Origin: Physcia stellaris | Taxonomy: Eukaryota; Ascomycota; Lecanoromycetes; Caliciales; Physciaceae | Direction: 5' to 3' | DNA length: 64,000 nucleotides | Assembly (NCBI GenBank): GCA_018902385.1 | Contig: JABSSW010000005.1 | Coordinates: 1,116,001 to 1,180,000, forward strand | In this document: positions 23,541-61,093 of the stretch, one piece after another | How the letters are laid out: each line of letters begins with the position of its first letter | Numbering within the stretch: the first letter of the stretch is position 1 | Program-made: the position numbers and the translations under genes | The notes under the pieces: model-generated | Database searches by the model: none | Told to the model about the DNA's origin: nothing | Seen by the model: only the letters and a program-made list of their open reading frames with translations

Positions 23541-26359
23541 AAAGCAATTTTATCACGATTAATGCACAGTCGATATGACATATAACATTTATTTTTGAAA
23601 AAATTTATATTAATGTTTTCGCACGAATTGAAAAATTGAACATCGAAATTTAAAAAACAAAATTACATTAAATTAACATGAATAGAAATCAAACATAACA
23701 AAATCATTTTAACATCATTGTTTTTATGAATACAACATGCAAAAAACATCGATTTGACAACGATAAATATATTTTTTTTCATAAATTGTTATAATGATTA
23801 CACGTTGTCAATTTTTTGAACTCGAAACGATGTTTTTTCAACAATATTATTTTCATGTGCTATTGTTCTTTCTGTAATTCATAATGTAAATTGTGTTTTG
23901 ACTTTACATTATCGTGATTTTTAAAAATAAATGTCTTCGATCAAAAAAAAGCAATGAAAATGTAAACATTTTCTCGATGTTTAAATTATTTTTTAATATA
24001 TTATACTCGTACGTTGACGAGAAATAATAATTAAAATTAAATAATCGTTGATTTTTTTGCTTGATATTATGCAATTACGATGATATTGTTCATTTCATTG
24101 ACAACGATACTTTTGATCAATTGTTGTTGTTTCAACATGTGAATATTTTCGCGTCAACACATATTCATCATTAACGTCGTTTGTAAAATCATTTCTGTTT
24201 ACATGAATTTCAATTTTTTTTTTTTTTTTTTTTGTTTAAACATCACGATCATCATCATCATGTCTCGTAGCGCGAATCAGTTGATCATTTGTAAATGTAT
24301 TATTGAATCGAAAATGTGTATGATTTTTGATATATGTTCAAACGTATTCGATGAAATTGTTATCAACGTCAATATTTTCGTCGTAAATGAAAATGCGAAA
24401 AAATGCGCACACGTTGATTAATGTATGCGAAATTTCGTCAACGTTTATCAAAAAACGAATTTTTCAATTTATTGAAATTTACGACGATCATACAATTTTT
24501 TTGACGAGCGTCAATCGTCTCGTCTCGTTTCAAATCATTCATTCGAAACAATTGAAAGTTTTGACTATTCAAATAAATTTCGAATTTTAATGTTTATAAC
24601 ATTGTTGACGCAATTTCAAATTATCGATCGAAATGTTCGTTCGTTTTGCATTTATTGCGTCGTCACGAACAATCGTGTTTTTCGCGTTTGTCGTTAAATC
24701 AAAACGCAATTTGAAACATGCGACGAATATTAATAAAAACACAAAACGTCGAAATGTTCGTTGAATATGTTTTTTTTTTTCGTTTCATTCGAAACGAATA
24801 AAACGATTATTAATTTATAATGTAAATTCGATGCGCGTAAAATTTGCGATCGCAAAAATAATGTTTTCGATTTTTTTCAAAATTAAAAATTTTTTTGTGT
24901 ATGACAAAAACACGCGAACTCGTATCAATGTTATAAAAACAACATTGTCGAATTTCGAAACGTGTTTTTCGCAACGACAATTAAATTGTTAAAAATTGTT
25001 TATTAATGAATTTACGACAAATCGCGAACGATTGCAGAAAATCGATTTCAATATCGACAAAAATGATCATTATTTTTGTCTCAAAATGAAACGAACTCAT
25101 GAATATAAACACAAAAATTCATTTTGAACACGACGACAATTTCGACGATTTCGAATTTGACGATTTCGAAATCGAACGATTCGATTCTATCGAGTTTCAA
25201 ATCGTTGTTTTCGCATCAATTGAAAAAACAAAAATTTCGAATTTTCGTTCTACAAAAACATTTACAATTTGAATTTCAAAATCGCGTCGTTTTCGCGTCG
25301 CAAAAAAAATTGTAAATATGTTTTTTAAAAAAATTTGAAAAAAATTCATTTTTTTGATTTATAAAAAAAAATATCAAACGATGTTGAATGAAAACGAAAA
25401 AAATATTGAAAATTGTGTTGACGAAAAAAATCAAACAAAAAAAAAAATGTATTAAACGTTGACGAGAATATCGTTTTCGAACATTCAAATAAAAAATGTC
25501 GAATCAAACGACGAAAACGAGAAATAATGAAATGAAATTGTGATTTGAAATGAAATTGAACACAATTGAATTTTTGTTTCGAGAATAATCATGTTGTGTG
25601 TCGATTTCATTGCATTTTCGTTATATACGAAATTGCAAAAAAAAAATTTTTTTGCATTGTTGTTTGATTATGAATTTTTTTGAATTTTTTTGAAACAATC
25701 ATGTTCTTTTCGCGATTGTAAAACATCATTTTGTAATTTATATCAAATTTTTCAACAATCAAACGATGCGAATGAAACGCGAAATTTGAAAAAATAAAAT
25801 CGAACGTGTTGCGACGTATAAAAAAAAAATTTGACGTCGAACGTTGAATATTTAAACATTATTTCAATGATCATGTATTGAGAAATTTTGTTATAAAAAA
25901 CGATTTCATTGCAACATCATCATACACGATATTGTGAAAAATTGACATTATTCGCATCAAAAAAATTTGCATTGTATTTATTTTTCATTTTATAAATTTC
26001 GTTGATTCGTTTTTTTTTTATTTTGTTGTTTTTTTTACATCATTCGTACGAAAATGTTTTTTAATAAATGCGATTGATTAATGAACAATCTTTTTGTATT
26101 TAGTAGATTTGATGTTGTCAAACAATTATTTTTATAAATTGTGATTTGATTTGATTTTGTTGATATTAAAATGTTTTGATGATGTTTTAATTTTTGTTTT
26201 GAATAAAAAAAATGAATTTTTTTTTATTATTTTGATATTTGCAGTTTGAAATGATACGAAAACAACAATTTATAAATATTTAAAACGAAATGTTGATAAG
26301 TTATAACAATCGATCAATAAATATGATAAAACAAATGTTTTCATTTTTTATATTGTTTT

Positions 26360-27559
26360 TTCATTTCATATGTTGATTCATGATCATCATTTCGTGAAAT
26401 TGTTATTGCGAAATCGATGAAATTTAATTTCGCATTTTCGTTTAATTTTTCGTTTTTTTTTTTTGTTTATTTTTTACACGACGTTTGATTTTTCATTTTC
26501 ACGACGATAAGTTGTAATACGAAATTTTGAATTCTAGAAATGTTTTTTTGACACGATTCAACGCGTTTCTATAATTTTCATCACGTCGTAAATCTCACGC
26601 ACGTCAAAAATTAAAAAAATTTTTATCGCGATAAATGAATTCGTTCAACAAAACGAAATCAATGACATCGAATTCTCATTATCGACGACGTAATTAATAG
26701 TTAAATCAAATTGTTTTTCAATGAATTTTTTTTTTGCAATTTTTTTTTTATCATTTTTTTCGTTCGTGCGTTCGTTTCGTTTTTATTTTGTCACGATTTT
26801 TTTTTTTTTTTTTTTTTTTCAATTTCGTTTAGACGATTACAACTCAAACGATCATTTCGTTTTTATTATGTCACGATTTTTTTTTTTTTTTTCAATTTCG
26901 TTTAGACGATTACAATTCGAACGATCATTTCGTTTTTACAAAAACGATTTTTTTATTTTGTCACGATTTTTTTTTTTTCTTTTCAATTTCGATTTTTCTT
27001 TTTTTCAATTTCGCGCAAACGATCACAATTCAAACGATCATTTCATTTTTATTCAATCATGATTTTTTTTTTCTTTTCTCACGATACTATCACGTCGTTT
27101 TTATTTTGTCATGATTTATTTTTTTTGTCATTTTCAATCGTTGTTTCATCGCGTTCATCGTTTTTCAATCAAATCAATCGACAATTTCTTTTTCAATTTT
27201 TCGTATTTTGCGCAAAATATTCACGAGTTTTCAACATCGTCATTACAACAACAAAAAAATGATGTTTGTTGTTGTTATATTTCACATTTTAGCATTGATT
27301 TCAAATTAGTCAATTAGATGTCGAAACGCGAATTCGATAATCAAACATTGTTATAACGTTTTCATTGAATTCAAAATTGTTATTGTTCGATTTTTTCAAT
27401 TGTAAGCATCAAATGCTCATCACACGAATCGAATTCGAACATTTTTGAATGAAAATTTATCATTTACAATTTAAATCGCAATTTTAATCACTAAATTAAC
27501 AAATCGATTTCATTTCGTTAAATCATTGATCATTTATTTGCATATATAAACACGATGCG
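26360..27559 (-). repeat. Right arm of long inverted repeat
   Basis: Reverse complement of 22,460-23,540, ending ATGCG at 27,555-27,559. Its middle (about 26,770-27,120) carries a tandem array of roughly 70-75 bp units. Each contains CATTTCGTTTTTATT, TGTCACGA and a long T run, then CAATTTCG and CGATYACAAYTC. This array makes the right arm longer than the left. Confidence 0.55.
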
Positions 27560-28979
27560 TCATTCAAAAAATTTACATGTCTTTTTCTTTTTCAATTTTT
27601 TTTCATTTTAGTTTTTTTTTTTTTTTTTCGAAATTTTTGCATTTGTGTCAGTTATCGTTTCACGAAAATCAACATTCAGCATTGAACATATTCATTAATT
27701 TCTTATTTAGTCGTTCTACTTTATCGTCACATTTTCGCAAAAGATAATGTTTATTTTTCAAATTTTTTTGAGTTTGTCGATCGAAATCATTTGAAATTTG
27801 CTTTCATTATAAAACATCAAAAATTTTATCATAATTGTCATGCATGATTTGTTTTTTTTTTGAAAAATTGTTTTTCGAATTGATCGAATTATAAATGAAC
27901 AAAATGATTGTTTTCAAACGAAAAAAAAATGAAATGAAATACATTTGTTTTGTATTGTTAATACTAAAATTCTAAATTAACATATTTGAATTTAGCATTG
28001 AAATGTAAATATCATATAATACAACAAACATATTTTCAATAATAATTTTTGCATTCAATATTAAATTTTTGTATTTTACAAAACAATACATTCATTTTCA
28101 TACAAAAATGTTTCATATCACAAATAATAATATCAAATTCAAATCATCAATGACAAAATCATTCGATCAATATTTTAATTCATGTTTCAAATATTTGAAT
28201 TTCTGATTTTATTTTTTCATTCAAAATTTCGATAATCGCATTCATGCAACTTTAATTTTTTCAATCTTTTCATTTTTTTCGTGAAAAAACAATTTGAATT
28301 ACATGCGAAAATCATGTGCATCGTTTTCAATGATAATTTTTGAAATGTAAAAATGTTTGATGTCGTATTTTGTTGAATTTTCAAAGAATAATGACGTATT
28401 GCTGATAACGTTATGCGAATATAAAATGTATGATGTTTGATTTTCGAAATAACGAATTTCAACGAAAAGAAAATTCGTTTTCAAACATCAAATAACACGA
28501 AAAGCAAATATCATGATGTGAATTTGTTTCACGCATTTTGCATTTTCATGTAAAATCAATGATAATTCATGAAATTCGCATATATGTATAATTTTAATCG
28601 TATGTTTCAACATTTTCAAAGAATAATAACATCGAACGTCGAAAAAATAATTGTATTGATGATTTTAATTGTTGAAAAAAATATTTCTCGATTGAAATCT
28701 ATTTATGAATACATGTTATAATATTATCAACGTCGACGTGATTGTTTTTGAACATTTTGCTTTTTATTAAATTTCTAGTCAAACAATCATATTTTCAATT
28801 TTTGAAAAAGTTGAACTATTTAATGTTCAAATTCGAATCATGATTTTCGTCATTCGCGTTTTCATAATCATCATCGTTGAACAAATGATCGAAATCGTTT
28901 TTTTTTCGAAAACATTGTCAAAATTATCGAAATTGTCGTTGAACATTTTCATTAATTTTTCAATCATCATTTTATTGCG

Positions 28980-29050
28980 TGTGACATTTTCATTTCAATC
29001 ATCGCGATTTCGATTATCGCGATTTCGATCATCGCGATCTCGATCACGTT
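28980..29050. repeat. Short tandem repeat, about 15 bp
   Basis: ATCGCGATTTCGATYATCGC is repeated about four times, a low-complexity CG-containing microsatellite in the AT-rich block. A looser array of ATCRTCAATATCGAAAACATCG-like units follows at about 29,395-29,610. Confidence 0.45.
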
Positions 29051-30702
29051 CTAATATATTCTGAATTTCAATCGATTGCGTCATTTTGACAATTTTTTTC
29101 GTGTAATTTTGATTTCGATCAATTTCGTTTTTTTGTTTCGAATCGTCATATCTGAAAATTTCGACTCATGATCAAAAAAATTTCGATCGATGAATTTTGA
29201 TTTTCGTTTTTTGATTCGAGTTGTTGTGTCGTTTTTGTTTTGTGATTTTCGATGTCTGTTTTTCAATTCGATGATTGCAAATTTTTTTTTGTTTGTCATT
29301 TCAATAACGTCGACGTCGTCAACATCGAAAATATAATCAACATTCATGATATTGTCAATATCATCGACGTGATCAAAATTAAAACATTGTTTTCGTCGTG
29401 AGCAAAATTGAAAACATCATCATTATCGAGAACACGAACAAAGTTCGAGAAAATTTATCGTCATTCGAATGATCAACAATTGAGTTTTCGTCATCATCGT
29501 CAATATCGAAAACATCGTTATCATTGACAACAAAATCGTCATTTCGATCAATATCGACGACATCATTATCATCGAAAACACGATCAAAATTGAAAACATC
29601 GTTTTTATCGTCAATCGATAAAACGAAAAAAACGAAACGTGATTGAAATCGATCGCGACTATTTCATAACACGTAATTTACGTCAAAAAACGTTTTTGAT
29701 GTCAAAAATATTTCAATTCGAATTCGAGTTCGAGTCGACGTGCGTGATCAATGAATTTCAAAACGAAATGATATCAAATTTCGATGTGATGAAAGAGAAT
29801 TTAGATTTTAATATTTTGAAATGAAATGAAACAATTCAAACGAAAACAACGATGCATTTTCAGATTAATCGATTTCGAATTGTTTCAAAATGTTTCGTAT
29901 ATTGTGAGTTTTCAATAACGAAATATTTGTTGTGTAATATTTGTGAATGTCAATACACGATTCAAAAAATGTGTATTCGATTTTTTTTGATTTTGATGAA
30001 TCGTTTGTATTGTTTTTCGATTTTGTGCAAAACGTGAAATGTAATTCGAATAAACAAATTGCGATAAAATTGTCGATTAAATTTCGTGATTGTTGATTTC
30101 GTTCGAATTTGTTTAACGACTTCGAAATAATTTTCATATTGTTTAAAAAATAGAATTTTCAAACGTTTGACTACAAATTTCATATTGTCAATGAAACATT
30201 TGAAGCATTTGTTTCAAAATGCGATGATCGTTTTCAATTCGAAAAGATTTATGAACGTTGAAATGCAACATGTCGTTGATGTTATAATTGCAAAAACAAC
30301 GTCGTCATAAACATCAAATCAGATTTTGCGCAAATACACGATTTCGTCGCGATAAAAACGTTCGTATTTATTTTTCAAATTTTTTAAATTAGTTTGTATT
30401 TTCACGAATGAAAACGTGAACAATTTCGAATCAATGTTTCATGAATTTTGTCATTCTTGTTCGATTTTGTCATCGTTGAAAGAATGTTTGCAATGTTTTC
30501 GAATTTTTTTGTTCATGTGATAAATGAAAAGAAGAATTTTTGTTGCTGAATATCGAGATTCGAAAATTTCGAACAATACTCAATTCGAAATGAAAACGAC
30601 TTACAAAAAAATTGAAAATCTAATTGTCGATACAGTTGATCGATATTTTTCATCATTCATGTCAAATTCGTTTTATTTTTCGTATTAATAAAAATCAAAT
30701 CT

Positions 30703-30928
30703 TGTGAAATGTCATGCATTGATTGAACTAATACATAACTACACGAGAATTTCTAAGTGAAAAGCAAATACATGAAAATTTGTAAAAACATATGTAGAAA
30801 ATTAGATCGTTTGAATGCGTCAAAACGAATTTCGATTTTAACATTCGATGTGATAAAATAAGAATGTTAATTTTAATGATTGATCAAATGTTGATTTCAA
30901 ATGTTGAATTCGATGCACGCTCGTCACA
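30703..30928 (-). repeat. 3' LTR of mutated gypsy element
   Basis: Matches 38,085-38,315 closely over its whole length (ATGTCATGCATTGATTGAAC at one end, GATGCACGCTCGTCACA at the other). Differences are mainly transitions plus one short indel near position 35 of the repeat. Confidence 0.85.
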
Positions 30929-32375
30929 TTATTTTCGTTTTTTTTCAATTTCGTTTCGAAACGATTAATTGATTTTTTTTTGAACGTTTTGCGCGATGTA
31001 AATATGTCGTTGAATGACGTTGAATTGATTTGTCGTCGAAACAAAAAAATAAACGCGAAACGTCGCGAAATGAATTTCGTTAACGAAATAAATTCGTCGA
31101 AATTTTGAAAACATTCAACATGATTATATTTTGAAATAAACAGTTCGAACATGTTAATAAAATCGTCGTTACAATCTTTTAATGCATTGAAATTTTCGAG
31201 TGTGCGAAAATCGATGTGTACATGCATGCGCAAAGCGTGAAAACAATGAATATTTTGAAAAATGATCAATTCATACAATTCGTAAAAAACAGTTTCGACG
31301 AACATTAATAATTGATGACGCGATTTCGCGTATCGACAAACATGAAAATTTTTGCAACATCAAATTGATATCACGAGACGAACAATTTAATCAAATTGAT
31401 GAAATTTTGTCATCACAATTAACACGTCGACGTTATCGCATATAAAACAGCTGATTCGTACAACGATTCAACGAAATATGCATGTACTAAATTTTTGAAA
31501 AGCGAATATTTTGTACGAATTTTACAGATAATTTCGCGTGTCATTAATAAACAATTGAGAATTTTGTTGACGAATTTGCAAATGTTCGAATTTTTTGCTG
31601 TTTATTTATATCATTGCATGACATTTTACATTATCATTTATTGTTCAATAAGATTTGACGACAATTTTTGAAAATGTTTTTAACACGATTCAATTTTTCA
31701 TGCGACGTAAATTTTGACTGTAAATAACGCAAAATGACAATGAAACGAATGACAACGAAAAAAAAAAATTATTGACGTCAATCTAAAAATGAATTGTAAC
31801 GAATTCGATGACAATTTTTTGATCGATCATAAACAATAAAATTCACGATTTAATCATTTCGCAAAACAAATTTTGCTGTTTTTGAATTAATTTCGTGAAA
31901 AACATCGACGATATTTTGAACATTTTGAAATTCATCGTCGTCGACATAATATCAAATGCGATCGTGAAAATTTCAGTTCGATCATTTGCAACGATATTGA
32001 AAACGATAATAATGATATCGAGATTGCAATATGTCGTCGAATTTTCATTCGGACGTTTCATTTGCGATAACGAATTTCGGAAAATCGTTGTGCTGCTCTT
32101 TCAACGAATCGTTGAAATTTTTTTTTAACAATCAAAAATGAAAATTGAATGAATGCGCATGTCATCGAGCAATTTCAGTTCGTAAACAATGTTTCGTCTT
32201 TTGACAACGAAATATGAATTCAATTTTTTGTCATTCAATTTGTCAGATGAACGAGTTGTTTTGATGTGACGACGATTTAATCATACAAAATTTTTATTTC
32301 AAAGTTGATCGAGTAGCGAAATTTGTTGATTCGAATCGTCATTCTTTGTTTAGCGTTAACAACATTGATTTTGAT

Positions 32376-41697: not shown

Positions 41698-43937
41698 TTT
41701 TGACGATTTTCGATCGTATTTTTTTGATTGTTCGAACATCGTTTTGAAAAAATTTGAATCGTGAAATTTTTGATAATTTTTTCATTCAAAAAAAAATTAA
41801 TATATTTCACGTTTGACATTTTTTCAATGTTTGATACAACATGAATAATACGCACAATGTTCGAAATGTTATAAAAACGATGAAATTTTACATTCGATTT
41901 TTTGAATATGTCGAATACGAAACGTTTTTTTATTTTCATTATATCGTGTATATCATCAATGACATTTTTGTTTCGCATACGTAATAAATCGATCAATATT
42001 TCAATGTATTTTTTGACGAATTTTTTTGTATTACATTTTTCAAATTTTTCACGATTAATATAAATTGTAATTAATCAATTTTTTTTTTCAAAAACGTCGA
42101 TTGTTTTTTTGTCGATCGTTTTTGATTTTCATTTTTGAATTCACACGTAATCACATCGTCGTTTTTCGCGTTTTTGTCAATTGAAAACAATTCGACATAT
42201 ATGAATCGTTAAACAATTCATGTCATTATGTAAAAATCAAAACGTTGACGAAATAATGTTTAAACGCAAATTACGTGATTAAATTTTATATACACAAATC
42301 ATGTTTTTACACAATAAAAAATTAATTCATCGTTTTTCAAATCACAAAGTTTCAACAGAATTTTTACGTCGAATTAGATTTTGATTGAATCACACATCGC
42401 AATGATTCGATTTTCGACGAATATTCATGATTCATATATAACGATTTTTTTGCGTTCGCTTTTTTTTTTATCACAATTTCAAATTTTATTCGAAATTTCG
42501 ATTATTTTTTGACAAAACATTTTCAAAATCACAACGTGAATTGTAATATGAATTATTGTGACATCGTTAACATTTTTTGATCAAAAAATTCGCAACGATA
42601 AACATGACGTTTCAACAAACGATCGATACGTTGTCGTTTTCAATTCAAACGTTGAATTTCAAAACGATGTATCGTCAAAATCACGAAATTTACAAACAAA
42701 TCATTGCTCATTGCGAAATGAAACAATTCGTTCAATTAAATTTCAAACAACAATGCAAAATATTGATTATGATAATCATTATTTTGTTTGAATGTTCGAA
42801 GTCGAAACAATCAAAATTGCAACGAAATCAAATCAAACGTCATGAATTGAACAAAACACGAACAATTTTCAAAATTTTCGAAAAAGCGAATTCGTTGAAA
42901 AATGAAAATAAAAAAATTTTGAATTATGTTTTGAAATTGCGCGCGACGCAAATAAAAGCAACGTTTCGAATTGTTTTGTAATCATGTTGCGAAAAGAAAA
43001 AAATTTTAATTTGACGAAAAAAATGAATTGAAAATACATTTGAAATTGACGTTATCGAAATACGAATTTGATGAAAAACGTTGATATAAAATAAAAATTG
43101 CAAATTGTAATGAAAAAAAAAAATAACAAATATAAAAATTGATCGTCGTTGAGTTCGAAAATTGTTTTGTTATGAAATGTATTCGCAATAATTGTTATAC
43201 ACAATATGATTGTCATTTTTTTTCAAATTCGAATCACGATTCATGTCATAATCGTTAATATTTAATTTAAATCATGTTGTCAATTTTTCATGCATTTGAA
43301 CAGAATAATATTTTATTCACGAAAAAAATTTTTTTTTGTTGTAATTGAATTTTTGATACGATTCGAAACAGTTTTGTTTTGTTTTGTTTTTACGAATAAA
43401 CAACGCTAAAATTTCTAATAAACATGAAATTTGAATTTGAATCGTTGTTGTTGACGCGTAATATCAATTTCGTGAATTACATTTCAATCGTTTGATAATT
43501 TTTGTTCGTTTTTATCAATTATTCATTTTAATTGTTTCATGTTTTTGCATTTTGTCATTTTTGTTTATCGTTTATTTTTCGATTTATTTATTAAATTAAT
43601 TTTTGAATTTCGACATGATCGTTTGCACGATTTTGTTTTCATAAATCGTAATCATCGACAATCAAAACGTTTGTTCGACGTGTATTGTTTTGTAATATTT
43701 GTTTTTCGTAGTTTTTTCGTTTATTGAACAATTTTCACAAAATTTTCAAATGATTCGAATGAATCGTTTTTTCATTTTCGATATTAAAATTTGTCAAAAC
43801 ATCGTATTTTCGAATAAAATGCGAATAATGAATTAAATTGTGCATTTTGAAAATATTGAAAAAAAATTTTTTTGAAAAAAAAAAAACGCAATGTTTCTTT
43901 GACAATATTGAAAACATTCAAAATAATATTGTATATA
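41698..43937. repeat. Dispersed repeat, copy A (interrupted)
   Basis: Matches 59,335-60,552 on the same strand, from TTTGACGATTTTCGATCG to the GACAATATT region. Copy A is about 1.0 kb longer because of the insertion at 42,227-43,236. Minus-strand frames in both copies share LLRMRNKNVIDDIHD and FHRFYNISNIVRIIH. The parent transposon is not identified. Confidence 0.75.
42227..43236 (+). mobile_element. 1,010-bp RIP-mutated relative of the 118-bp element, inside repeat copy A
   Basis: The first roughly 118 bp are a mutated version of the 118-bp element (TATGTAAAAATC for TGTGTAGGGGTC, through TTTTTCAAATCACA for CCTTCCAAACCACA). The insertion is bounded by 13-bp direct repeats: CAATTCATGTCAT at 42,214-42,226 and CGATTCATGTCAT at 43,237-43,249, differing by one G/A. 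Repeat copy B has a single CGATTCATGTCAT at 59,859-59,871, which is the empty site. The right end (TTTTTTTTCAAATTCGAATCA) loosely resembles the end of the 118-bp unit, hinting at terminal direct repeats. An open frame 42,577-42,981 has no recognisable match. Confidence 0.8.
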
Positions 43938-46900: not shown

Positions 46901-47593
46901 AAAACAAATATGTTACAGTCAACGCGATATCAAATATGTATCAAAAATAAAAAAACAAAAAAAAAAACAATGCAATTTAACGCGAAACGTTTTTAATTGT
47001 GATTAACGAAATTGATTGAACAAAATTTTTGTCGTCGATTAAAACAACGATTGTTTGTTTTGATCGTCAAATTATTTTGCTGTTTAACGTGTTTCGCGAA
47101 AATTTAAATTTATTTAATTTTTAACGTGTTTTATCAAATATACGAACGTGTCGTTTATTTTTCGTTTGATTGTTTGTATTTTGCAAAATTGTGCGATTGA
47201 TGTCAAATAAATTGTTAAAACAATTGCAAATGTATTGAATTATTATTCATATCAAACATGATTTTTTTTGCGATCGAAATGTTCGATTATGACGATCAAC
47301 ATCGACAGAAAAAGTGAAACATCGTTTTTCGTTATATTGATATTCATTTTTTTAACATAATTTTTTTCTCAAGTTTCGAATTCAAAAATTTTAATGAACG
47401 ATGAATGAAACGACGTCAATGATATTTATCGCAATCGTTGTTTTTTATGATTTGTAATTTGCGATGTTTTTCGAAATATTCAAAATTAAAAACACAATTG
47501 CGAAAATTGACAAATCGTCACAAACATTTGATCGCGACAATTCAATATTTTCGCAACACGATTGTTTTTGATGCTAAACTGAAATTCGAAATA

Positions 47594-47830
47594 TATCATG
47601 GGCCGTGCTTGGATAGACGTATTATTGGCTAGCTAGACGAAGACAATAAGTCTGCAGAAACAAGTAGGTACAGGATGTTGGAGTTGCAAACAGTGTGCGG
47701 GCGCCAAGCCCCAAACCACGCTAGTCCCGTCAGGGAATTAGGGCATAACCCGGTCTAGGCATACCTGCCTAACCACCTACCATACCAACTACCTACCTGC
47801 CAGACCTACCTGCCAGGCATGCTCGTAACA
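47594..47830 (-). repeat. 3' LTR of the chromovirus
   Basis: About 237 bp. In element orientation it begins TGTTACGAGCATGCC. It differs from the other LTR by roughly a dozen substitutions, a 1-bp indel and an indel of about 12 bp around 47,755-47,775. The differences are not mainly C-to-T, so they are not a RIP product. Confidence 0.88.
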
Positions 47831-47845
47831 CTATCCCCCCTCCGC
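47831..47845 (-). other. Polypurine tract
   Basis: On the minus strand GCGGAGGGGGGATAG directly precedes the TG of the 3' LTR. This is the expected place for the primer of plus-strand DNA synthesis. Confidence 0.8.
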
Positions 47846-48160
47846 GAGCGTCGTCCCGACGGTCCGTTGTTACTCCGAGGTTGGAGGACCTTGTTGAGGA
47901 CCTTGCTGACTGATTTGGGTGCCTGCAGGATCCAGAAGTTCCACGATCACCATCTTTCACCTCCAGGTGCTCCGTTATTGCTTCAAAGCTCGGTAAGACC
48001 TGGCAACAGCCTCTGGAGGTGTTTCTGGCACGGTTCAGCCCTCCATGCGACGTAAGCCCTGGCTGTAAGTAACACCGAGGCGGTAACGGAGACTAGGGGC
48101 TGCGAGGACGTTGCGGGAGTGGAATCGAGGTGAGTGTACTGAATCCGAGGCTTCCAGGTT
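47846..48160 (-). other. Untranslated region between pol stop and polypurine tract
   Basis: About 315 bp downstream of the chromodomain-bearing frame. No further ORF of the element is recognisable on the minus strand. The composition is GC-normal. Confidence 0.5.
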
Positions 48161-51100
48161 CTAACCGAATGTAGCCTCGATTAATGCCAGCATGGCGGCC
48201 TTCCTTCGAGAGCGGCGGCGACCCACCGGGGGATCTGATCCGTTGGCGGCGTCTTGGGGTACTGGGGTCAACGTCTTGGACGGTTCTGGGCCTGCAGCCG
48301 TGGGGTGAGTGCGATGGAAGTCGTCCACCACGTCGCGGGCATTATCAAACTCTCCGTTGTCGGCATAATACCATGTTCGGTCATGCGGCCAGCCCGACCA
48401 GTTGGCACGATACTGGAGGCGGTTGTAGTGGTATCGAGACTCCAGGATATCGTCCACCTCCCACTCGGGGTTTTCGTTGACTATGACAGGGCCAGGAGGT
48501 TCATTGGTTTGGCCTTCGAGTGGGTCACGGGGGTCTTTGCGCAGGAGCCAACAGTGAAACACATCGTAGATATGCATGGTTTCAGGCAACTCGAGTCGGT
48601 ATGAGTTGCCCATACGTTGTAGTACCTTGTAGGGACCTAGCTTCTTGTCATCGAGCTTGTCAGACGGCCTGGCCGTCTTGATGTTTCGTCGGTCCAGGAA
48701 GACGAAGTCTCCCTCGGCGTACTCCACGGCCTTTCGATGCTTGTTGGCTTGAGCTGTCATACGCTTCTGGGCCACCTCTGCATGGTCTCGTACGTAGTTG
48801 AGGATATTTTGCATTGTGCCGGTAATATCCTCTGCCTTGGCGGCCAGAAGCCGCTCCCTCGTTGTAGCATACGAGGTAGGGTCTGGTGAGAAGCTCATAC
48901 GGGGGTGGAAGCCCTTATTGATGAAGAATGGTGATAGCCCTGTTGTTGCAGATACCGCGTTGTTGTCTGCAAACTCGGCCATGGGTAACCAGACGTCCCA
49001 ATCGTTCTGCATGTAGTTGCAGTACTGCCGCAACTGCCTCTCGATATCCTGATTGGCTCTCTCGGTTTGCCCATCGGTTTCTGGGTGGAAAGCGGTGGAG
49101 AGCTTACACTTGATGCCGAGGATTCTGCAGAATGCCTGCCAAACGAGTGATATGAACTGCGGGCCTCGATCTGACGTTATTGAGGAGGGTAGCCCATGCG
49201 TACGGAATACGTAATTGATGAGTATTTTGGCCGTGGCCTCAGCACTAGTACCCTCGTCGTCGGCGGTACAAGGCACGTAATGGCGTTCCTTACTAAGCCT
49301 GTCAATTATCGTGCATATGGCATTATGACCGTGGGCGTCGGGCAGCCCGGTGATGAAATCCATTGATATGTCGGTCCAACGTTGCAGAGGTATGGCCAAG
49401 GGGTGAGTAAGCCGTTCTTGCGATCCCTGGAGGCCTTCGTACGTTGGCATCCATGGCAATTGCGTACGTATCGGCGGACGGCCTTGCGCATGTTGGGCCA
49501 GTAGTAGTCGCGACGTATAAGGTCCTCCATACGGTTAAATCCTGGATGCCCCGAGGCCGGGGGTTCATGGATTTCCCTGAGGAGGTCAACGAGTAAGGGG
49601 GCATCGGCGGGCACCCATAGTCGGTCACCTCGATACAGAGCACCGTCCTTTTCATTGCAGCCTCGTAGGTCGACCCCGTCCACTGAAGTGAGGCCTTGCC
49701 CGATGGCTTCACGATACGCCGTGCAGTCATCGTCAGCTTTATTGGCAGCCAGGACTCGTTCGTAGATAGGTTCGTCAGTCTCCACCGCGTGGATCTCGAG
49801 TCGTTCGGGAGTGAGCAGTACCTGCTCTCGATATTGGTGCCGTTCGTCAGTATCGTCCTTTGGTCGTGAGCCAGGCATACGGGTCAGGGCATCTGCTTTA
49901 ACGTTCTGAGCCCCGGACTGAAACTGAATGGCAATATTGAACTCCGAGAGGGTTTCTGCCCAACGAGCCTGACGAGGAGTTAGTTTCTTTGACGTCATGA
50001 AGGTTTCCAGGCCCTTGTGGTCGGTGAAGATCTTGACCGGTTCTTCAGTGCCCTCAAGCTCAGGACGCCAGTGCTCTAGACAACGAATAATGGCCAGCAA
50101 CTCCTTGTCATAGATCTCGTAGTTGCACTCGGCTGGAATCATGTTGCGGCTGTAGAAAGCAACGGGGTGCAGAACTCCTTCGTCGTCATATTGAGATAGC
50201 ACTCCCGCATTGACGTAATCAGAAGAGTCAGTCTCCAGAATGGCCTGTTTGGTTCGATCGTAATGCCGTAGTATAGGAGCCTCAGTCACCGTTTTCTTGA
50301 GGAGGTTGAAGGCTTCTTCGGCCTCTTCAGTCCATTCGAACCCCACAAGCTTCTTAGTCATTCGGGTGAGAGCTCGAGCCTTTTTCGAGAAGTCACGAAT
50401 GAACCGTCTGTAGAAGTTGACGAAGCCCACGAAGGCCTGCACTTCCTTCAGATTTGTAGGGCGTTCCCAGTTGACAATGACTTCTATCTTCTTCGGATCC
50501 ATGCGAAGGCCATCCACCGATAGTATGACGCCCAGGAATGCCACCTCCTTCTTGAAGAACTCGCACTTCTCAATATCCACCTGTAATCCGGCTTCCTTGA
50601 GTCTCTCCAGCACCTTACGAACGTGAACGATGTGCTCCTTCTTGGATTTGCTGTAAATGAGGATATCATCTAGATAGACTTGACAGAAATCGTTCAGGAA
50701 GCTGAACAGCAGGTCGTTCATGTAATGTTGCCAACTCGCGGGTCCGTTGGTCAATCCGAAAGGTAATACTCGGTATTTGTACGATCCCATGGAGGTAACG
50801 AATGTGGTGAGTTCCTCACTCTCCTCACTCATCCGAAGCTTGTTGAAGGCCGATATGATATCCAGCTTGGTCAGATACTTGCAACCTTGCACCCTAGCTA
50901 GAGTCTCTTCGATCAAGGGGATGGGATACCGATTGCGTTTCGTGATGTGATTAAGTCGTCGGTAATCCACACACAAACGTAGTTGACCATTTGGCTTGAC
51001 TGCAAATAGAACGGGCGAGGCGTATGCTGCTTGACTGGGTACGATGAAGCCCTTCTGAAGATTATCCTCCAAATACTCCTTGAGTTTCTGGAGCTTGAGT

Positions 51101-52380
51101 TCGGACAGAGGATATACTCTGCTTCGGGGCAATGTACTGCTATCGCTTAGGAGCTCAATTTTGTGATCGTAGGCTCGATGCGGTGGCAGTTCAGTTGCCC
51201 TCTGAGGGTCGAATACTTCTGACAGATGTCTGAAGTACTTCGGTACCTTCTCCATTATACGTTCAAGAATCGGCTTGACCTGCTCGTGCTCCAGGATCTC
51301 CTTGGTCATGGCGGCAACCTCCAACGATTCAGGATCTGCTCGCAGTGCTTTGAGCGCGGAATCGATTTGATTGATCGTAATGGAAAAGCATTGCACTCCT
51401 TGCTTTCGACCTTTGGAGCCGGCGAGTAGGCAGAAGGAGGCCGCACCAACCATCGCGATATCCACCGAATCGTCTGGGTCCAGCCCCGGGGGTGGAGGGA
51501 TCTCGGGTTGTTGTTTCTTGACCTTCCAACGCTTGTTGCGTTGCCTTTTCAAGTCCCTTTTCTTGACGGATGTCGCTTTCGTAGCCGCTGTGGTATCAAT
51601 TTCTGAATGATCTGGCTCAACGGCGGACGGCTCGTCATCTTGATCGGCTTCCGAGTGAGTAGAGCAATCGGAGCACTCTGAATCGGATACGTCTGACTCG
51701 TCCTGTACGTAGGGCGCTGGGGGGCTAGGTTGCGGACGGGGTAGAATCGTATATCGAGGTCCTATTGCAGCAATATGCTCCGCGTTACTTGCCTTCGGTA
51801 AGGGGGCATCGCGGCGCCAGCTAGGTACGTCCCATCGGCGGTCTGGACCAGGAGCTTCCAGGCGCCGGGCCTGCACTGCTTTGGTGGGTATACTGCCATG
51901 GTGACTACATCTGGACGGTTTGAAGATCAGTTTATCGTAGGCCATATCCAGAATAACCCCATGCTTGTTCATCCACGGTTTTCCTAGAATTATCGGATGG
52001 TTGCCCAGGTCGGTGATGAACAAAGGAGCTGTCAACTCGGAGTGCAGGCCAATTGTCAGCTTGGGGTAAATGGCATGAGTTATTGGAGGAGCCTGACGGC
52101 CGTCGAATCCGGTAATGGGCTTCGGTTTTAGTAGGGGTACGGGGTCCATGCCCAGCATGTTGCATACAAGTTGCGCGATTTCTCTATCAATGAATGCATA
52201 ACCAGTTGCACCAGTGTCTATTAAAGCTTCTAGTCTATGCCTATTATCGTTGAATGATAACGTACAATTGGTGACTAGGGGCCGCCTGGTGAAAGGGTCA
52301 AACAATCCGTCATGATGAGTAGAGGAAATTCTTAAACACCCACCAACCGCGTCTTTGGTGTGGGTTATCAGTTTTCCGAG
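48161..52380 (-). CDS. pol: Pol polyprotein (protease, RT, RNase H, integrase, chromodomain), one-base frameshift
   Basis: The upstream frame runs from 52,380 to 49,306; the recognised part begins at FDPFTRRP (52,305). Counting from there: aspartic protease DTG at 30-32; RT with YLDD at 544-547; RNase H with D693; integrase zinc domain H913, H920, C950 and C953. Near residue 969, in a run of four G on the plus strand (49,400-49,403), one base is missing. Homology then continues in the frame of 49,459-48,161. That frame holds the integrase core, with catalytic D53, D97 and E133 (exactly DD35E in that ORF's numbering). A chromodomain-like region EWEVDDILESRYHYNRLQY follows. The pol frame is -1 to gag and overlaps the gag stop, so expression by frameshifting at GGAAAAC-TGA is likely. 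The missing base is either a real inactivating mutation or a homopolymer sequencing error. Confidence 0.9.
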
Positions 52381-53780
52381 TCAGACCCGCTCGACTCGCT
52401 GGCCATGTCCATGTAGGATACCTGCATCTTATGCCAATGGCGTTCCTGATGCTTGTGGGCGTTCGGGCACTCCCTCCAGACGTGACCCAGTTCGCCACAT
52501 GTGAAACATTTGCCCGTGGCGGCCAACTTGTCAGTCACCGGGTCACGAGTCTTGGTTTCAGCGCTGGGGTGGAAGTGAGCGGCAGGCTTCACGAAGGGAG
52601 CCGGGGTAGCAGGTTTCGTAAAGGGCACCGGGGTCGAGGCGACAGGAGTTGATCTGGACTGGGGCAGTTCAGGACGTTGCTGACGTGCCGCGGTCTTTTC
52701 TTTTCGAAGGCTCGATTGTCGATTGTATATCTGCTGCAGGGTGGTTCGGGCCTCATCGAGCGTGGTGAACTCACGTGGATATACACTCATCGCCTCCTTC
52801 AGGTTCCAGGAAATCTTGTCCATCAACTCCTCGATCTTGGTGGCTTCGCTATAGCCAGTTGGATTGCTAAGGCGGAGGAAGGTGGAGTAGAAGGACTGGA
52901 AGTCCTGAGTACCCATGGTCAATGCTCGGAATTGGTTACGCATATTGCGTTTGAAATCAGGATCTTCGTAAATAGTGCCCAAGAATTCCAACACCATATG
53001 CCAGGTCCTGAAGTGATCCATATCAATATCACGAACCGATTGTATGTGGCCACCGGCATCACCCTCAGTCCAGCCAATTACAGTAGTGGCCGCGATCATG
53101 TCCGTGTCGTAATGATCAGCGTTGGCCGTCATTTTATCGTGTACCTTTGTCTTCCAAACACGCCAGGTGGGTTCTACTCCATCGGTGAACTTAGGAGGAT
53201 CTGGGTGTGCTTTGGAGCGTCGTTTGTTCTTCTGAGAGGAGCTAATTACGCTGGCCTCACCGTCGCTCCCTTCATCGCCGGCGCCAGGGCCTCGTGCACG
53301 GCCGCGAGTCTTGGCCAGCAAGGCGTCGTGATCTTTCTTCAGGAGAGTGTAATCCTTTTGCTTGGTCAGGAGTAGATCACGTTGTCTTTCGTATTCGCTC
53401 TTCAGGGTATCCAACTCTCGGCGGACCTCATCTAGCTCGGCATTCGTATTGACCAGCTCGTCACGGTCGGCGCTGGCAATATTGTACAAGTTCTGGTATT
53501 GAGCCAGGGCGTCCAGGTAGTTGTCACGATCAGTGCGTAGTCGATCAAATTCCTTTAGGAAGTCGGCGGCTCTATGGTTGGCCCACCACTTCAACTGACC
53601 GGTGGTGACGATATTCAGGGGGTGAGTGGCTTCGTCATCCTCCACTCCTATGGACTCGGCCGTTGGTACAGACCGGCGGCGTTTGGACTGGTCAGCGAAG
53701 CTCTCGTCAGGAGAGTTGTCGTTAATCTCATGCAGCATACGATCCACGTTGGCGCGTAGCGTTCTGAGGCGTTGTTCCAC
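52368..53780 (-). CDS. gag: Gag protein of the chromovirus
   Basis: 470 residues. The N-terminal third is strongly helical with a predicted coiled coil (about residues 85-160, rich in Leu/Glu/Asp/Arg heptads such as DELVNTNAELDEVRRELDTL). A retrotransposon gag core follows, including FLGTIYEDPDFKRNMRNQF and FQSFYSTFLRLSNPTGYSE. A Pro/Ala-rich linker leads to one zinc knuckle, CFTCGELGHVWREC (about 425-438, C-x2-C-x4-H-x4-C), for RNA packaging. The ORF is uninterrupted and ends GSDSEN, with its TGA overlapped by the pol frame. It should form the cytoplasmic virus-like particle of the element. Confidence 0.92.
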   Translation of the reverse strand: MEQRLRTLRANVDRMLHEINDNSPDESFADQSKRRRSVPTAESIGVEDDEATHPLNIVTTGQLKWWANHRAADFLKEFDRLRTDRDNYLDALAQYQNLYNIASADRDELVNTNAELDEVRRELDTLKSEYERQRDLLLTKQKDYTLLKKDHDALLAKTRGRARGPGAGDEGSDGEASVISSSQKNKRRSKAHPDPPKFTDGVEPTWRVWKTKVHDKMTANADHYDTDMIAATTVIGWTEGDAGGHIQSVRDIDMDHFRTWHMVLEFLGTIYEDPDFKRNMRNQFRALTMGTQDFQSFYSTFLRLSNPTGYSEATKIEELMDKISWNLKEAMSVYPREFTTLDEARTTLQQIYNRQSSLRKEKTAARQQRPELPQSRSTPVASTPVPFTKPATPAPFVKPAAHFHPSAETKTRDPVTDKLAATGKCFTCGELGHVWRECPNAHKHQERHWHKMQVSYMDMASESSGSDSEN

Positions 53781-54076
53781 CGGAGTAGGAGGTCCGGGGA
53801 GTTGTTTCGTGATGGCTTCGGGCCATAGCTGGGGATGGAGAATTGGAGGTGGTAAAAGGGAAGGGGGTTAATCGTGCCAGTTCTCGTCTTCTATCGTCGA
53901 TTGCGTGAAGGTTCGGCTTGTTACTTCACGGCTTTCGTCAGTTGCCTCGTCAGGAGGGCTTTCAGATCGTTTGCCTGGTCAGCAGGGCTTTTCGTCGTTT
54001 GCCTCGTCAGGAGGGCTTGGTCGGTCTGGGGTCTTATTTTTGGGCGCTCGCGTACCTCGACGAGCGGTAGAGATGG
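53781..54076 (-). other. Leader between primer-binding site and gag
   Basis: About 296 bp of untranslated leader of the chromovirus. It contains three nearby copies of a short motif (plus strand GCCTCGTCAGGAGGGCTT or close variants at about 53,943, 53,969 and 54,001). This may be a packaging or dimerisation structure, but the role is unknown. Confidence 0.5.
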
Positions 54077-54087
54077 AGACTTATTGT
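54077..54087 (-). other. Self-priming primer-binding site (Tf1-like)
   Basis: On the minus strand ACAATAAGTCT spans the last three bases of the 5' LTR and the first eight internal bases. It is perfectly complementary over 11 nt to AGACTTATTGT inside the LTR (54,149-54,139 on the minus strand). That is the arrangement of Tf1, where the first 11 nt of the transcript fold back onto the primer-binding site. It implies transcription starts at 54,149 and a 63-nt span from that base to the first base of the site. No tRNA-like primer site is evident here. Confidence 0.7.
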
Positions 54088-54313
54088 AATATCATGGGCC
54101 GTGCTTGAATAGACGTATTATTGGCTAGCTAGACGAAGACAATAAGTCTGCAGAAACAAGTAGGTACACGATGGTGGAGTTGCAAACAGTGTGCGGCGCC
54201 AAGCCTCAAACCACGCTAGTCCCAACGTAGAATTAGGGCATAGCCCGCTGCCCGACCACATACCATACCAACTACCTACCTGCCAGACCTACCTGCCAGG
54301 CATGCTCGTAACA
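54085..54313 (-). repeat. 5' LTR of the chromovirus
   Basis: 229 bp. In element orientation it begins TGTTACGAGC and ends GATATTACA (TG..CA, with short inverted ends). The likely R region starts at AGACTTATTGTC. I see no clear TATA box upstream of it. Confidence 0.88.
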
Positions 54314-57300
54314 AAATATGACAAAATATTCGAAATAAAATCAAATCAATCAACGTCGTATCTCGATCGCATTTGAATCGATTTAAACATTTGTGAATTG
54401 TTTTCGATCGTGTTCAATGATTTCAACAACAATTGAATGATGTCAAAAATGAATATCGACAATGTTTGAATACGATTTATGAATCGTGCGATCGCGAGAA
54501 TTTTCAACATTCGAATACGATTTTCGAAATTTTCACAATTGACGTAATTGCAAAAATCATATATTGTTTGACATCGAATCAAATTTGCATTAAATTCAAT
54601 TTGTTTTCAATCACATTTTCAATCTTTGTCAATTTTTTTGATTTTATTTGAATATATTTCTTGTTGCAGTTTTCGTTTTCGATTTTTATGAATCGAAAAA
54701 GACGAAACAAATCGTGAAAAAAAAAATGAACAATGAAAAAAAAAACAAAAAAATGAATTGAAAAATGATTTGCATACGAAAAATGAATTGAAAATGAAAA
54801 ATGAATTATTGACGAAAAGTAAATTGAAAACGAATAATGAAAAAAAAATGAAAAACGAATCAAAAATGAAAAATGAAAAAAAAAAATAAAAAATGAATTG
54901 AAAACGAAAAAAAATTGAACAGATGAAAAATCGTTGTTGTTGCGATGATTCGCACAACGATGTTGACGTTGATGCAATCGATATTTTGAATCGAATTGAT
55001 CGCAAAATGTCGATTTTTTGAAAAATTGTGCGTCAATCGTTTTTATAATTCGTTACGTTAATTTTTAATACAAATCGTTAAATCAAAATGTTTTTTTTGA
55101 TTTGCATTGATAATTTATTTTGATTTGATTTAATAAAAAACTGCAAATGATGAAATTCATAAAAATACATTTCGAAAATCGCGATTTTTCAAAAGCGAAA
55201 AAAGTCGCAGTTGATTTTTGACATTTTTCAATTCATATAATTCGCAATATATGAATTTCAATTCGAAATTCATTTTCATATTTTTTTTCAATATTTGTAC
55301 AAATTTATCAAATTTCAAATGTTTCATCGTGATTTTTTCAAAAAAAATATTTGAAAAAATCATGTTTTTGATCGACACATCTCGTTATAACAATTTTTTT
55401 TTTTTCGAAAAAAAAATGTGATTGCATCGAAAACGACGTTGAATGAATGAAATTTTATGATAAAATTATTATTGCATGATTTTTTCGATGATATTAAATT
55501 TGTACGTTTTCGCTTGCAATTGTTGTTGATTTTTTGAATTCAATGAAACAAATATGTTTTTTTTCATGCGAAATCGACGTTTTCGAATATTGTAAAATAT
55601 TTTTTTTTGATTGTGATAAAAATCGATTGCAATTTTTTTTTGATATTGACATGATTAAATTTGTCATTCAATATTTCATTTCTGATCAATTTTTTTTTCA
55701 AAAAAACGTATATTATTTTGTACGTTTTTTCGTCTATTTTTAAATCGATGCGAATGCGATCATTTGTTCAATAATTCACGTTCAATTCTTTTCAAATCTT
55801 TTCACGAAAAACATTGAGAATAATCATTGTGATCGATATTTTCGACATGTAATTCGCATTCGCACGAACGCGTCAAACACGCATTTCAAAACAATTGATA
55901 TATAAATTTGCGAAAAATGTCGTGTTTGATCGTCAAATTGCACGTTGTGTAACAATGCAATAAATTTTTTTTCGAAATCGAAATGTTGATATATTCGTAT
56001 GACGATTAAATGAAAATCGACGAATATGAAAATGAAATGCAACGATATTCATGCAATTGTCAAAAAAAATCAAATGAAATCGATCAAACGCGATCAATCG
56101 CGTTCGATTGAATTAATTTCAATCAAATTGTTTCAATTTTTAATTCGATCGTTAAATCGTGTTGAAATGAAAAAACAAAATTTGATCGTTAACGTGTTTC
56201 ATGCGATTGAATTCGTTTCGTTTAACGTTCGAATCGTTTAACGTTAAAAATGATTTGTTGTTTTTTTGAAACATTTGTATCATTAACGTGTTTTGACGCA
56301 TCGTGATAATTCGCAAATTCGTTATTTTGTTATAAAAACGATCACATGTTTCAAATGTTTTGATTTTTAAAAAATATCAATCAAATCACAAATTTCATTC
56401 ACAAATTCAATTCATATATTCATTAACATTTTTTATTTTCAATTTTCGAATTGTGAAATTTTTTTGATTTATCACAATTTTTTTTTAAATTTTTGACAAT
56501 GAAATTTTTTGATGTCATTCAACAAAATTTATTCGAAATTTGACATGAAATTTATAAACATATCAATTATTAACGTTCATATCAACATTTCGAATTTGTC
56601 GATTATTGAACGATATTCAATGTCAATTCGAAATGATTGATTCGTCGTCAATGATTTTTGTTTCAATCATTTTTTTTTTCAATTTTTGTGTAAACGTTTC
56701 GTCGAAATCGATCGAATTGCGAATTCGAATGCAAATTTTGATTGATCGATACAAATATCAAACGATTTTATTTTTTTTCAATATTATTCATGAATCAAAT
56801 GTCAATGACGACGAAAAAAATTTTGTATTTCGATATTTTTTATCGAATTCAAATCGTCAATGTTATGAAAAAAATAAAAATCAAATATCGTGACAATTTG
56901 TGAACGATTGAAATTCGTATCAACAAATTGAAACAAAAATTGAAAAAAAAAACGTGAATAAATTCGAAAATGACGTCAACGAATGATCGTTGCTCAAACA
57001 AATTCGAATCACATTTTTTTCGAAATCACAATTCGTGACAACATTTCGATCGATTCGAATGTTATTGTCATGAATACAATTGTTATGAAAAAATAAATGT
57101 GATAAAAATTTTTTTTTTTTGTTGTTAAACATTAAATATTTAAATCAATCACACATAATTGTAAATCATTGAATCGCGAATTTGATTTGAATAAAATAAT
57201 AATTACAACATTTTTTTGTGAACGCAATTTGATGATGTCAATATCAACGACAAAAAACAAAAAATTTGAAATAAATAAACAATTGCGACATTTTTATTCG

Positions 57301-57649
57301 ATGCGATTATGCGAAAAAAATTCATTGTGATAACGTTTTTTAACGATAATCATAATGAAATTCATTTGCATCAAATCAAATTTGTTTCGATGATAAAATT
57401 TTGAATATTTATTTTGTAATTAAAATTATGTTTCGAAAATTGATGAAACAAATTTTTGAAAAAAACAATTTCGAAAACGAACATATTTACATATTGCGCG
57501 ATCGAAACGTCGTCGCGAATGTAAATCACGTGTTGAAACAAATTTTTTTGTTCAACATTTTGAAATCAATGATTGAATCATGATGACATCATGTCGACAA
57601 TGATATGTGAAACAATAAATTTTATTCGTTGTTCATTAATTTGAATGTA

Positions 57650-58010
57650 ACGTCGATAATAAAATCGTCGACAAAATCAAATGCGAAAATGAAAATATGA
57701 CGTCGATAATAAAATCGTCAACAAAATCAAACGTCGATGAAAAAATCGTCGACAAAATCAAATGCGAAAATGAAAATAATGAAATATTTTTGACGTCGAT
57801 GATAAAATCGTCGACAAAATCAAATGAATTGAACGAAAATGAAAATGTGACGTCGATAATAAAATCGTCGACAAAATCAAATGCGAAAATGAAAATGTGA
57901 CGTCGATAATAAAATGATAAAATCGTTGACAAAATCAAATCGCGAAAATGAAAATTTTTGACGTCGAAATAAAATCGTCGACAAAATCAAATGCGAAAAT
58001 GACAAAACGA
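57650..58010. repeat. 48-bp minisatellite, about 7 copies
   Basis: The unit contains GACGTCGATAATAAAATCGT, then CGACAAAATCAAATGCGAAA and ATGAAAAT. Copies vary by insertions (for example ATGAAATATTTTT before the fourth and ATAAAATG in the sixth) but keep ACGTCGA and GTCGAC almost invariant. Confidence 0.8.
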
Positions 58011-59334
58011 AAATGAAAACGATGATAATGTCGACAATTATATCATTGACAACGAATTTTTCGAATTTTTTTTGCAAAAAAATCGTGAAATATTTTTGAA
58101 TCGTGTCGTTTTTTTTCATCAATTTCATCATTTTTTGTCATTTTTCGTTATTGAATTGAACGATAACAACGTTGATATCGACAATAATTTTTGTTTCGAC
58201 GTTAAAAAAACGTGCATTTTATTAAATGATATTAATTGTCATGTCAAAAATTGAAATATATGCAATGATAACATTCACATCGTTTTTGTAAAAAAACAAT
58301 AAATGTCGAACGACATGATATTGTTGCGAAAAATGATGTCAAAAAATCAAAAACAACATGTGAAACATCGATTTTGTAACATTGACACAATTCGAAATTT
58401 CGAATTCGTTTTTGTCATTTACGATTATCAACATCGAATAAATTGTTATTAATTCGATATTCGTAAAGTTTTTTTTTGTTTTTTCACATGCGATAATGAG
58501 CAAAAAAATAAAAAAATAAAATTTAAATTTTTGCAAAGCAAAAAATTCACGTCAATAAAAAAATATTGTTTTCGTATTTTTTTATATTTTCGTTCAAAAT
58601 GAAATGCAATGAAAATTCAAAAAAATTAATACGATTTTTTTGCGAAACATTTTTGAATTTTCAATCGATTCAAACGTAATGTTATTATCAATCAAAAAAT
58701 TCGTGAAAATTTGTTGTAATAACGAATCGTTTTGTATATCAAAAAATGAACAATTTGTAATAACGAATCATTTTTTGACATTTTGAATTTTGAAAACAGA
58801 AATTCGTTAATCATAAATAAAACATAACGTATTCAAAATGAATTTATTTGATCGTAATTGTTTGAATAATCATATTGACGATTTTGTATTTGATTTTGTT
58901 TTGTGAATAAAAATTTTCGTTTGTTTGAAAACATCGAATGTTTGAAAATATCGATCGCATTTTGCATTTTCGTGTTTTGAAAATTTTGTTTGTATCGTTT
59001 TGTTTTCAAAAAAAAAATTATTGCGTCAAAATATGATTAAATTATCGAAAATAAAATGCAAATATTTTTGTCAAAAATCGTTGTTGTTTGAATTTAAATG
59101 TTTAAATGTAAAACAAAATCATCGTGAATTTTTTAAATGAATAAAAAACGTGTGATTTACAAATAACATAACGAAAATATTTGATTTAAAAAACAAATAT
59201 GTACATGAAAATCGAATGTCAAAAATAAATTGTGAACGTTAATTTTCATGACGATTTTCGTTGATAAAATAAAATTTTATCGAAATTTTTTTCAAAACAT
59301 GTTCGTAACAACAACAAAAATAATTGATATCATT

Positions 59335-60552: not shown

Positions 60553-61093
60553 AATTCATGATTGTTTCGATATGCGAATGATATTGAATTATCATCGTTA
60601 TATTGATTATCATTTTAATGCAAAACAACATTTCGAATTGTGTTTTTTTCAAAAAAAAAATCATGACAAAAACAATTTGACGCATATTGTTTTTAAATTT
60701 TTTTTTGTCATTTTTTTGTATCATTATACGTTTTTCAAATAATAAAATTTTTGTATAATAAAACACGCGTTCATGTTTGATTCAATTGTTTCGTTGTTTC
60801 GATTTGAATTCAAATCAATTTTTTTTTCGTTTGCGTTGTTTTTTTTTGAAAATTTTCGTCATGACGTTTGAAATTTGAAATATTCAATTTTTTACGTACA
60901 AATCGATCATTTTTTTTATCATTTAATATAAAAAATTTGAAAACATTTTTTGATGCACATTGAATAAATAATGTTTTCAAACAAAATTATTGATCGATTT
61001 GATGTATTCGTGTCGATTTTGATCGTTTTTTTTTCATTTTTTTTGTCGTTGTTTTTTGATTTGATTTTTGTTAATTTGATAATTACGCATAAA

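Follow-up and report, generated by a model that had tools for sequence, protein, structure and literature searches.

The order of target contexts in RIP of Neurospora crassa is given as CpA > CpT > CpG > CpC (PMC5496416, PMC10170752), and a strong CpT share is described for Tad1 in this species (PMC2621366). Crosses of Trichoderma reesei yielded CpA about equal to CpG, followed by CpT > CpC (PMC5496416). In Botrytis, Sclerotinia and Magnaporthe (PMC4352252) as well as in Anisogramma (PMC10998396), CpT accompanies CpA as the main or the second context, and it dominates the alignments of the RIP-capable control fungi in PMC7882544. A class I (RID/Masc1) enzyme is present in fungi with CpA or CpT signatures, as far as these are treated in PMC4352252, PMC10998396 and PMC7882544. 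For Monilinia, CpC>TpT double changes beside CpA are reported (PMC8959702), and in one nematode-trapping fungus CpA is less preferred (PMC3828140). RIP-like mutation of basidiomycetes is directed at CpG or TpCpG (PMC4352252, PMC4014442). In the lichen fungus Cladonia rangiformis the GC content is bimodal, genes are sharply delimited from ripped repeats, some young elements have escaped RIP, and homologues of RID and DIM-2 are present; the relevant sections of this account describe its RIP without dinucleotide contexts (PMC12542154).

Here we describe a stretch of 64,000 nucleotides from the lichen fungus Physcia stellaris (C5:1,116,001-1,180,000), hereafter the window. It lies close to the end of its contig (1,184,035 bases), within an assembly of 43.97 Mb and 147 contigs; no doubled TTAGGG repeat was found in the last 5 kb of this contig. 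As in N. crassa, C:G pairs in repeats are converted to T:A on both strands, AT-rich blocks result, and genes of RID and DIM-2 type are present. Unlike in N. crassa, where CpC comes last, CpC is hit ahead of CpT in P. stellaris, and both CpA and CpG are nearly spared. Likewise, C>T change in duplicated sequence is common to T. reesei and P. stellaris, but CpC is last in the former and first in the latter. The ascomycetes with CpT signatures share CpT as a target; in their case it stands beside CpA where this is stated, and CpC is not named as a main context in the parts of these reports concerned with context. The C>T bias in transposable elements resembles that of basidiomycetes, whereas CpG is the best-kept context in P. 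stellaris. The GC content of 1-kb steps wholly inside the mutated blocks is 0.22-0.30, compared to a GC peak near 16% in Cladonia rangiformis (PMC12542154).

A sequence-only reading of this DNA had regarded a CpY preference of such strength as undescribed. This is supported, with the qualification that CpT itself is reported from several ascomycetes, usually beside CpA. In those parts of the literature that were accessible, we found neither a case with CpC as the leading context nor one in which CpA and CpG are both spared; the 2011 survey by Clutterbuck of genomic evidence for RIP in filamentous ascomycetes, reportedly a main comparative one, could contain such a case. Since CpT is already reported as a RIP context, the new part is CpC as the first target with CpA and CpG spared. 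In the published text on the P. stellaris genome the terms "repeat-induced" and "transposable" are absent, and its three words that start with "rip" all refer to RiPP peptides.

Short repeats and AT-rich blocks of the window

Three copies of a short, MITE-like repeat were compared:

2,363-2,480, minus strand: copy 1, unmutated, in DNA of normal GC content; identified by alignment and by copies in the genome
6,105-6,222, plus strand: copy 2, unmutated; query of the genome search
42,227-42,346, plus strand: copy 3, mutated; identified by alignment and recovered with copy 2 as query (E 6e-11) at C5:1158237-1158346

Re-alignment of copy 3 with the reverse complement of copy 1 revealed C>T changes, counted on both strands, at 13/13 CpC and 14/14 CpT sites, compared to 1/17 CpA and 0/10 CpG sites (CpY 27/27 vs CpR 1/27, Fisher p = 3e-14). 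The earlier count of 28 transitions within about 118 bp, 27 of them at CpY, is thereby reproduced, as is the preservation of CpA and CpG with one exception; copy 3 indeed retains no CC, CT, GG or AG, in line with the claim that no CpC or CpT survives. Apart from C>T transitions no substitution separates copy 3 from copy 1, and copy 3 carries a 2-base insertion. With copy 2 as the reference, 14/15 CpC, 12/13 CpT, 4/19 CpA and 0/8 CpG sites are changed, the further differences being one T>G and one C>G.

For the genome-wide family of this repeat, the best 40 of 47 candidates were scored and the 30 with loci were used. The 11 loci with a flank GC below 0.36 are changed at CpC in 120/157, CpT in 75/135, CpG in 3/83 and CpA in 50/199 cases. 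At the 19 loci with normal flanks the corresponding values are 15/262, 8/233, 9/147 and 57/332, the last of which we take to be differences of the reference copy. With regard to the length limit of RIP (approximately 400 bp), these 118-bp repeats are unmutated in the 19 loci outside AT-rich DNA and mutated in 10/11 inside it, the exception being locus L015.

Two mutated AT-rich blocks are present in the window:

16,200-47,592, no strand: first block, with a sharp left border near 16.2 kb and without any CC or GG within 16,146-32,051
54,314-64,000, no strand: second block, with a single CC/GG (62,224) and CpT nearly absent; extends beyond the end of the window

Dinucleotide counts were compared with 200 shuffles per block. 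Over 16,801-47,590 of the first block CC+GG occurs 6 times compared to a shuffled mean of 1037, and over 54,321-64,000 of the second block once compared to 287. CT+AG is reduced to about one fifth in the first block (587, shuffled 2956) and to 3% in the second (27, shuffled 887). CG exceeds the shuffled value more than threefold (1740 vs 517 and 524 vs 140), and CA+TG amounts to 3915 (shuffled 2960) and 1272 (shuffled 892), respectively. Chance base composition as a cause of the CpC and CpT loss is ruled out by the shuffles. Since CpT partly remains while CC+GG is nearly zero, CpC was exhausted before CpT. Thus, the claim that the AT-rich blocks bear the signature of copy 3 holds for the depletion of CpC, but CpT is not gone everywhere and is nearly absent only in parts. 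The 240 bases counted by hand earlier, in which 26 of 26 C preceded G or A, presumably stem from a nearly saturated part. In 1-kb steps of the mutated blocks CpG reaches 2.5 to 4.7 times its expectation, and therefore there is no sign of CpG decay.

The mutation is confirmed as real and is by no means confined to the three short-repeat copies. Among 250 AT-rich 500-base tiles from loci across the genome, 42 of 34,044 cytosines stand in CpC and 227 tiles are devoid of it, compared to 9,991 of 39,286 cytosines in 158 normal 500-base tiles of the same locus set. Tiles with a GC content of 0.32-0.42 were excluded from this comparison; loci overlapping one another or the window were kept and not made unique. 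The CpC depletion of AT-rich relative to genic DNA, proposed earlier as a check, is thus found across the genome. At the left border of the first block CpY drops from 20 to 2 per 100 bases across adjoining tiles, i.e. the border is sharp to about 100 bases.

Genome searches with three pieces in all yielded 34 and 46 match rows for two AT-rich 1-kb pieces, and the genic piece matched only itself. On this basis, the two mutated pieces are repetitive and the unmutated one is unique, yet two long unmutated Gypsy repeats exist (see below). At least 9 other copies are 93-95% identical to the mutated segment at 24,001-25,000, which reflects either copying after mutation or saturation to a common end sequence. 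Other features of the window are a local array of partly alike, CGTCGA-rich 72-base units at 57,644-58,025 in a mutated block, and an open frame of 674 amino acids at 10,812-12,836 with a PigL_N-like N-terminal part and a G-protein alpha domain.

Mutated copies of a Ty3/Gypsy element

The two blocks are separated by an unmutated retroelement with the following features:

47,593-54,313, minus strand: near-intact, unmutated Ty3/Gypsy LTR element, inserted in mutated DNA, with mutated sequence reaching both of its ends
about 47,593-47,830 and 54,089-54,313: similar terminal stretches at the element ends
49,306-52,380, minus strand: pol-type open frame with reverse transcriptase, RNase H and H2C2 zinc binding
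48,161-49,534, minus strand: open frame with integrase core and Tf2-1-like SH3 domain
52,368-53,867, minus strand: gag-like open frame with a zinc knuckle

The element ends show clustered changes and a 12-base gap; they differ by several per cent, whereas the mutated copies of the element show few transversions. Inspection of the flanks by eye revealed a possible 6-base target duplication, AAATAT. A search with the Gypsy protein in viral contigs gave no match.

The window piece 49,800-51,300 (1.5 kb) served as the reference for the mutation spectrum. The best 40 of 222 candidates from the genome search were scored and 30 loci were cut out, comprising the window itself (L035), one unmutated copy (L036) and 28 mutated copies. 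Relative to the window copy, the 28 mutated copies carry C>T changes at 4387/4680 CpC (94%) and 4793/6074 CpT sites (79%), compared to 379/5397 CpA (7%) and 110/4587 CpG sites (2.4%). Hence, also in a second, longer repeat family aligned from many contigs, CpA, which is the usual but not universal favoured target of RIP, is not the main context. The change is nearly purely C:G to T:A, with few transversions in most copies, and affects both strands of the repeats (median strand difference 0.043, largest 0.145). The 5' neighbour has a small effect (NCC 0.92-0.96, NCT 0.74-0.85), and the second 3' base matters little; CpC followed by C is lower (0.86), because its neighbour can change first.

For CpC before a purine relative to CpT, the two copies with the least mutation give implied rate ratios of 3.45 and 3.47, and the median over the 28 copies is 2.17, since saturation lowers the implied ratio in the others. 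This purine-only figure replaces one with CCC and CCT sites mixed in (median 1.78, 26 copies). In copy L062, 378/381 CpY sites are changed, with 3 transversions and 7 changes of T>C type in about 1,494 aligned bases; the mutation must therefore have been fast.

Both unmutated copies (window and L036) are 96% identical across the searched piece. Their mutual differences, counted in both directions, fall on 99/2394 CpY sites vs 68/2382 others (p = 0.018), which is far below the mutated copies. Ordinary sequence divergence as the source is ruled out, since the unmutated pair has only a slight CpY excess. This slight excess also argues against an alignment artefact, and it may be a trace of weak action.

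As far as its text reports, the published genome was obtained from axenic cultures derived from ascospores and has a GC content of 43.32%. Two Gypsy copies being unmutated despite this origin, it is not certain that every long repeat is hit in each sexual cycle, or the process has stopped.

Retroelements are known to undergo C>T hypermutation by APOBEC-like cytidine deaminases, and such an enzyme might have acted on single-stranded cDNA of the Gypsy element. We consider this highly improbable: the strands are hit alike, short non-LTR repeats in AT-rich DNA are mutated as well, and the context is the 3' base and not the 5' base as in APOBECs. The 3' context together with the equal strands led us to reject a deaminase on cDNA. 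A profile search for APOBEC_N found no match in the genome, but none in control genomes either. Lichens are exposed to UV light, and both CpC and CpT are dipyrimidines, so that UV damage to a lichen growing in the sun, with inefficient repair in heterochromatin, might be thought of. Its probability is close to nil. With UV damage the 3' cytosine of TpC should be a further main target, yet TCA+TCG (177/3860) is close to ACA+ACG (82/2209), and the sharpness of the left border likewise speaks against it. As TpCpR is spared, UV damage was rejected.

The CpY rule also determines how the elements are disabled. Within the mutated pol frames, 134/140 TGG codons were changed to TGA, whereas CAA, CAG or CGA were turned into stops in 9/835; among all stops of these frames 137/151 are TGA. 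Since CpY targeting spares CAA, CAG and CGA, the elements are disabled by missense changes and Trp stops instead of the nonsense changes that are otherwise usual. Standard RIP indices, at their usual thresholds, are positive in 0/79 AT-rich and 0/45 normal 1-kb windows. With none of the AT-rich windows called, surveys relying on TpA/ApT and CpA indices would overlook CpY mutation.

Cytosine methyltransferases of P. stellaris

The sequence-only reading had suggested to look for RID- and DIM-2-type methyltransferases. A PF00145 profile search of the genome gave four matches in three genes with catalytic motifs, namely two RID-like genes (RIDa and RIDb) and a DIM-2-like gene (L002). The first of them is located as follows:

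G000:C6:791,557-792,528: RIDa, second, diverged RID-like gene (L001 850-2506); matched by PF00145

The predicted spliced RIDa protein has 508 residues. Among the 120 matches listed, it shares 72% identity with a protein from Heterodermia, and no other named protein exceeds 43%; none of these 120 is named as a Physcia stellaris protein, with P0001 being a 96% match. RIDa may thus be missing from the public annotation. A structure model of its Heterodermia relative P0002 has a DNMT1-type fold (pLDDT 83.5). A pattern search with P0002 in the genome contig collection matched 39 stretches, none of them a relative.

For the tree, 62 proteins were chosen (61 found plus RIDa) and 45 kept; of the others, 5 were without the start motif at which sequences were trimmed, and 12 retained at most 230 residues beyond it. 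Neither N. crassa RID nor Masc1 is included. RIDa falls among the RID/DmtA proteins and has retained the PPCQ and ExT motifs, as expected for the RID/Masc1 subfamily. Its clade stands beside the Eurotiomycete DmtA group (99/96) on a stem of 0.46 changes per site. In this clade (13 rows, 9 reaching the last column), 8 columns that are conserved in at least 85% of 24 other RID/DmtA proteins are replaced; these include the residues that follow PPCQ and a threonine within the presumed target-recognition region. Around the catalytic loop and in this region RIDa accordingly lacks residues that are characteristic of, but not defining for, RID/DmtA proteins. Because of the eight replaced columns, the diverged clade and the kept catalytic motifs, RIDa is the best candidate for a changed target, and we give it a nearly even chance of being the enzyme behind the CpY mutation. 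Catalysis by purified RID is undetected according to the pertinent part of a 2026 review (PMC13297926).

The mutations might instead be made by RIDb, which is encoded on the same contig as the window and matches a Physcia stellaris protein at 100% across the searched region. In the tree RIDb groups with the long RIDs of the lichens Teloschistes and Usnea, near those of Botrytis and Sclerotinia, i.e. of fungi with CpT signatures beside CpA (PMC4352252). However, a CpC-first order is without report for these two genera in the sources at hand, and RIDb has an ordinary sequence: its catalytic half is 58-66% identical to several other lichens, and it deviates in only 3 of the columns that are conserved across at least 85% of 17 other RIDs in its group, compared to 8 such replaced columns in RIDa. 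We therefore regard RIDb in place of RIDa as rather doubtful.

The DIM-2-like gene bears on a slower process, in which methylation of CpT and CpC in heterochromatin would be followed by gradual deamination of 5-methylcytosine, with no RIP burst. Methylation by Neurospora DIM-2 is reviewed as mostly non-CG with a preference for CpT (PMC13297926), but in P. stellaris CpC is hit ahead of CpT. Moreover, the near-complete CpY conversion with few transversions, as in L062, needs a fast process, and the DIM-2-like protein is ordinary, sharing 75% identity with that of Heterodermia and 56-62% with those of other named lichens among the matches listed. Slow decay is thus quite unlikely.

A probable RIP-type defence with a changed target

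In our view a RIP-type genome defence is probably active in P. stellaris, or was so until recently, and its rule would be a C with a pyrimidine as the next base, CpC taking precedence over CpT. Direct observations are the spectrum of C>T changes, which is governed by the 3' base and hardly by the 5' base, the involvement of both strands and of many contigs, the sharp left border and the near-saturation. The earlier description as RIP-like, directed at CpC and CpT and sparing CpA and CpG, is borne out by the spectrum of the Gypsy copies and the AT-rich loci; RIP in the strict sense, i.e. premeiotic, duplication-triggered and RID-dependent, is what we infer from it. Repeated DNA would be recognised, presumably through its homology during the sexual phase, in the manner of Neurospora RIP, and its cytosines converted to thymines on both strands. 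The target would be almost exclusively C with a 3' pyrimidine, CpC being converted approximately 2 to 3.5 times faster than CpT and CpA and CpG remaining nearly untouched. An RID-class, DNMT1-like enzyme would carry out the mutation, with RIDa as the candidate; RIDb or DIM-2 may act instead of RIDa or beside it. About one fifth to one quarter of the genome is estimated to be mutated, because the published GC content lies where it does relative to the GC of genic and mutated DNA seen here.

More tentatively, and with somewhat less than even odds, we propose that the RIDa clade of Caliciales lichens switched its target from CpA to C-pyrimidine and performs RIP. This would leave CpC near extinction in repeats with CpG and CpA kept, would produce stop codons almost exclusively at tryptophan and would be missed by CpA-based screens, and comparable CpY RIP may occur in fungi scored as RIP-negative. 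Irrespective of the enzyme, the CpY spectrum shows that the base read 3' of the target by a RIP-type mutator can be switched almost completely. An ordinary RIDb and a diverged RIDa in one genome form a natural pair for asking what sets the target.
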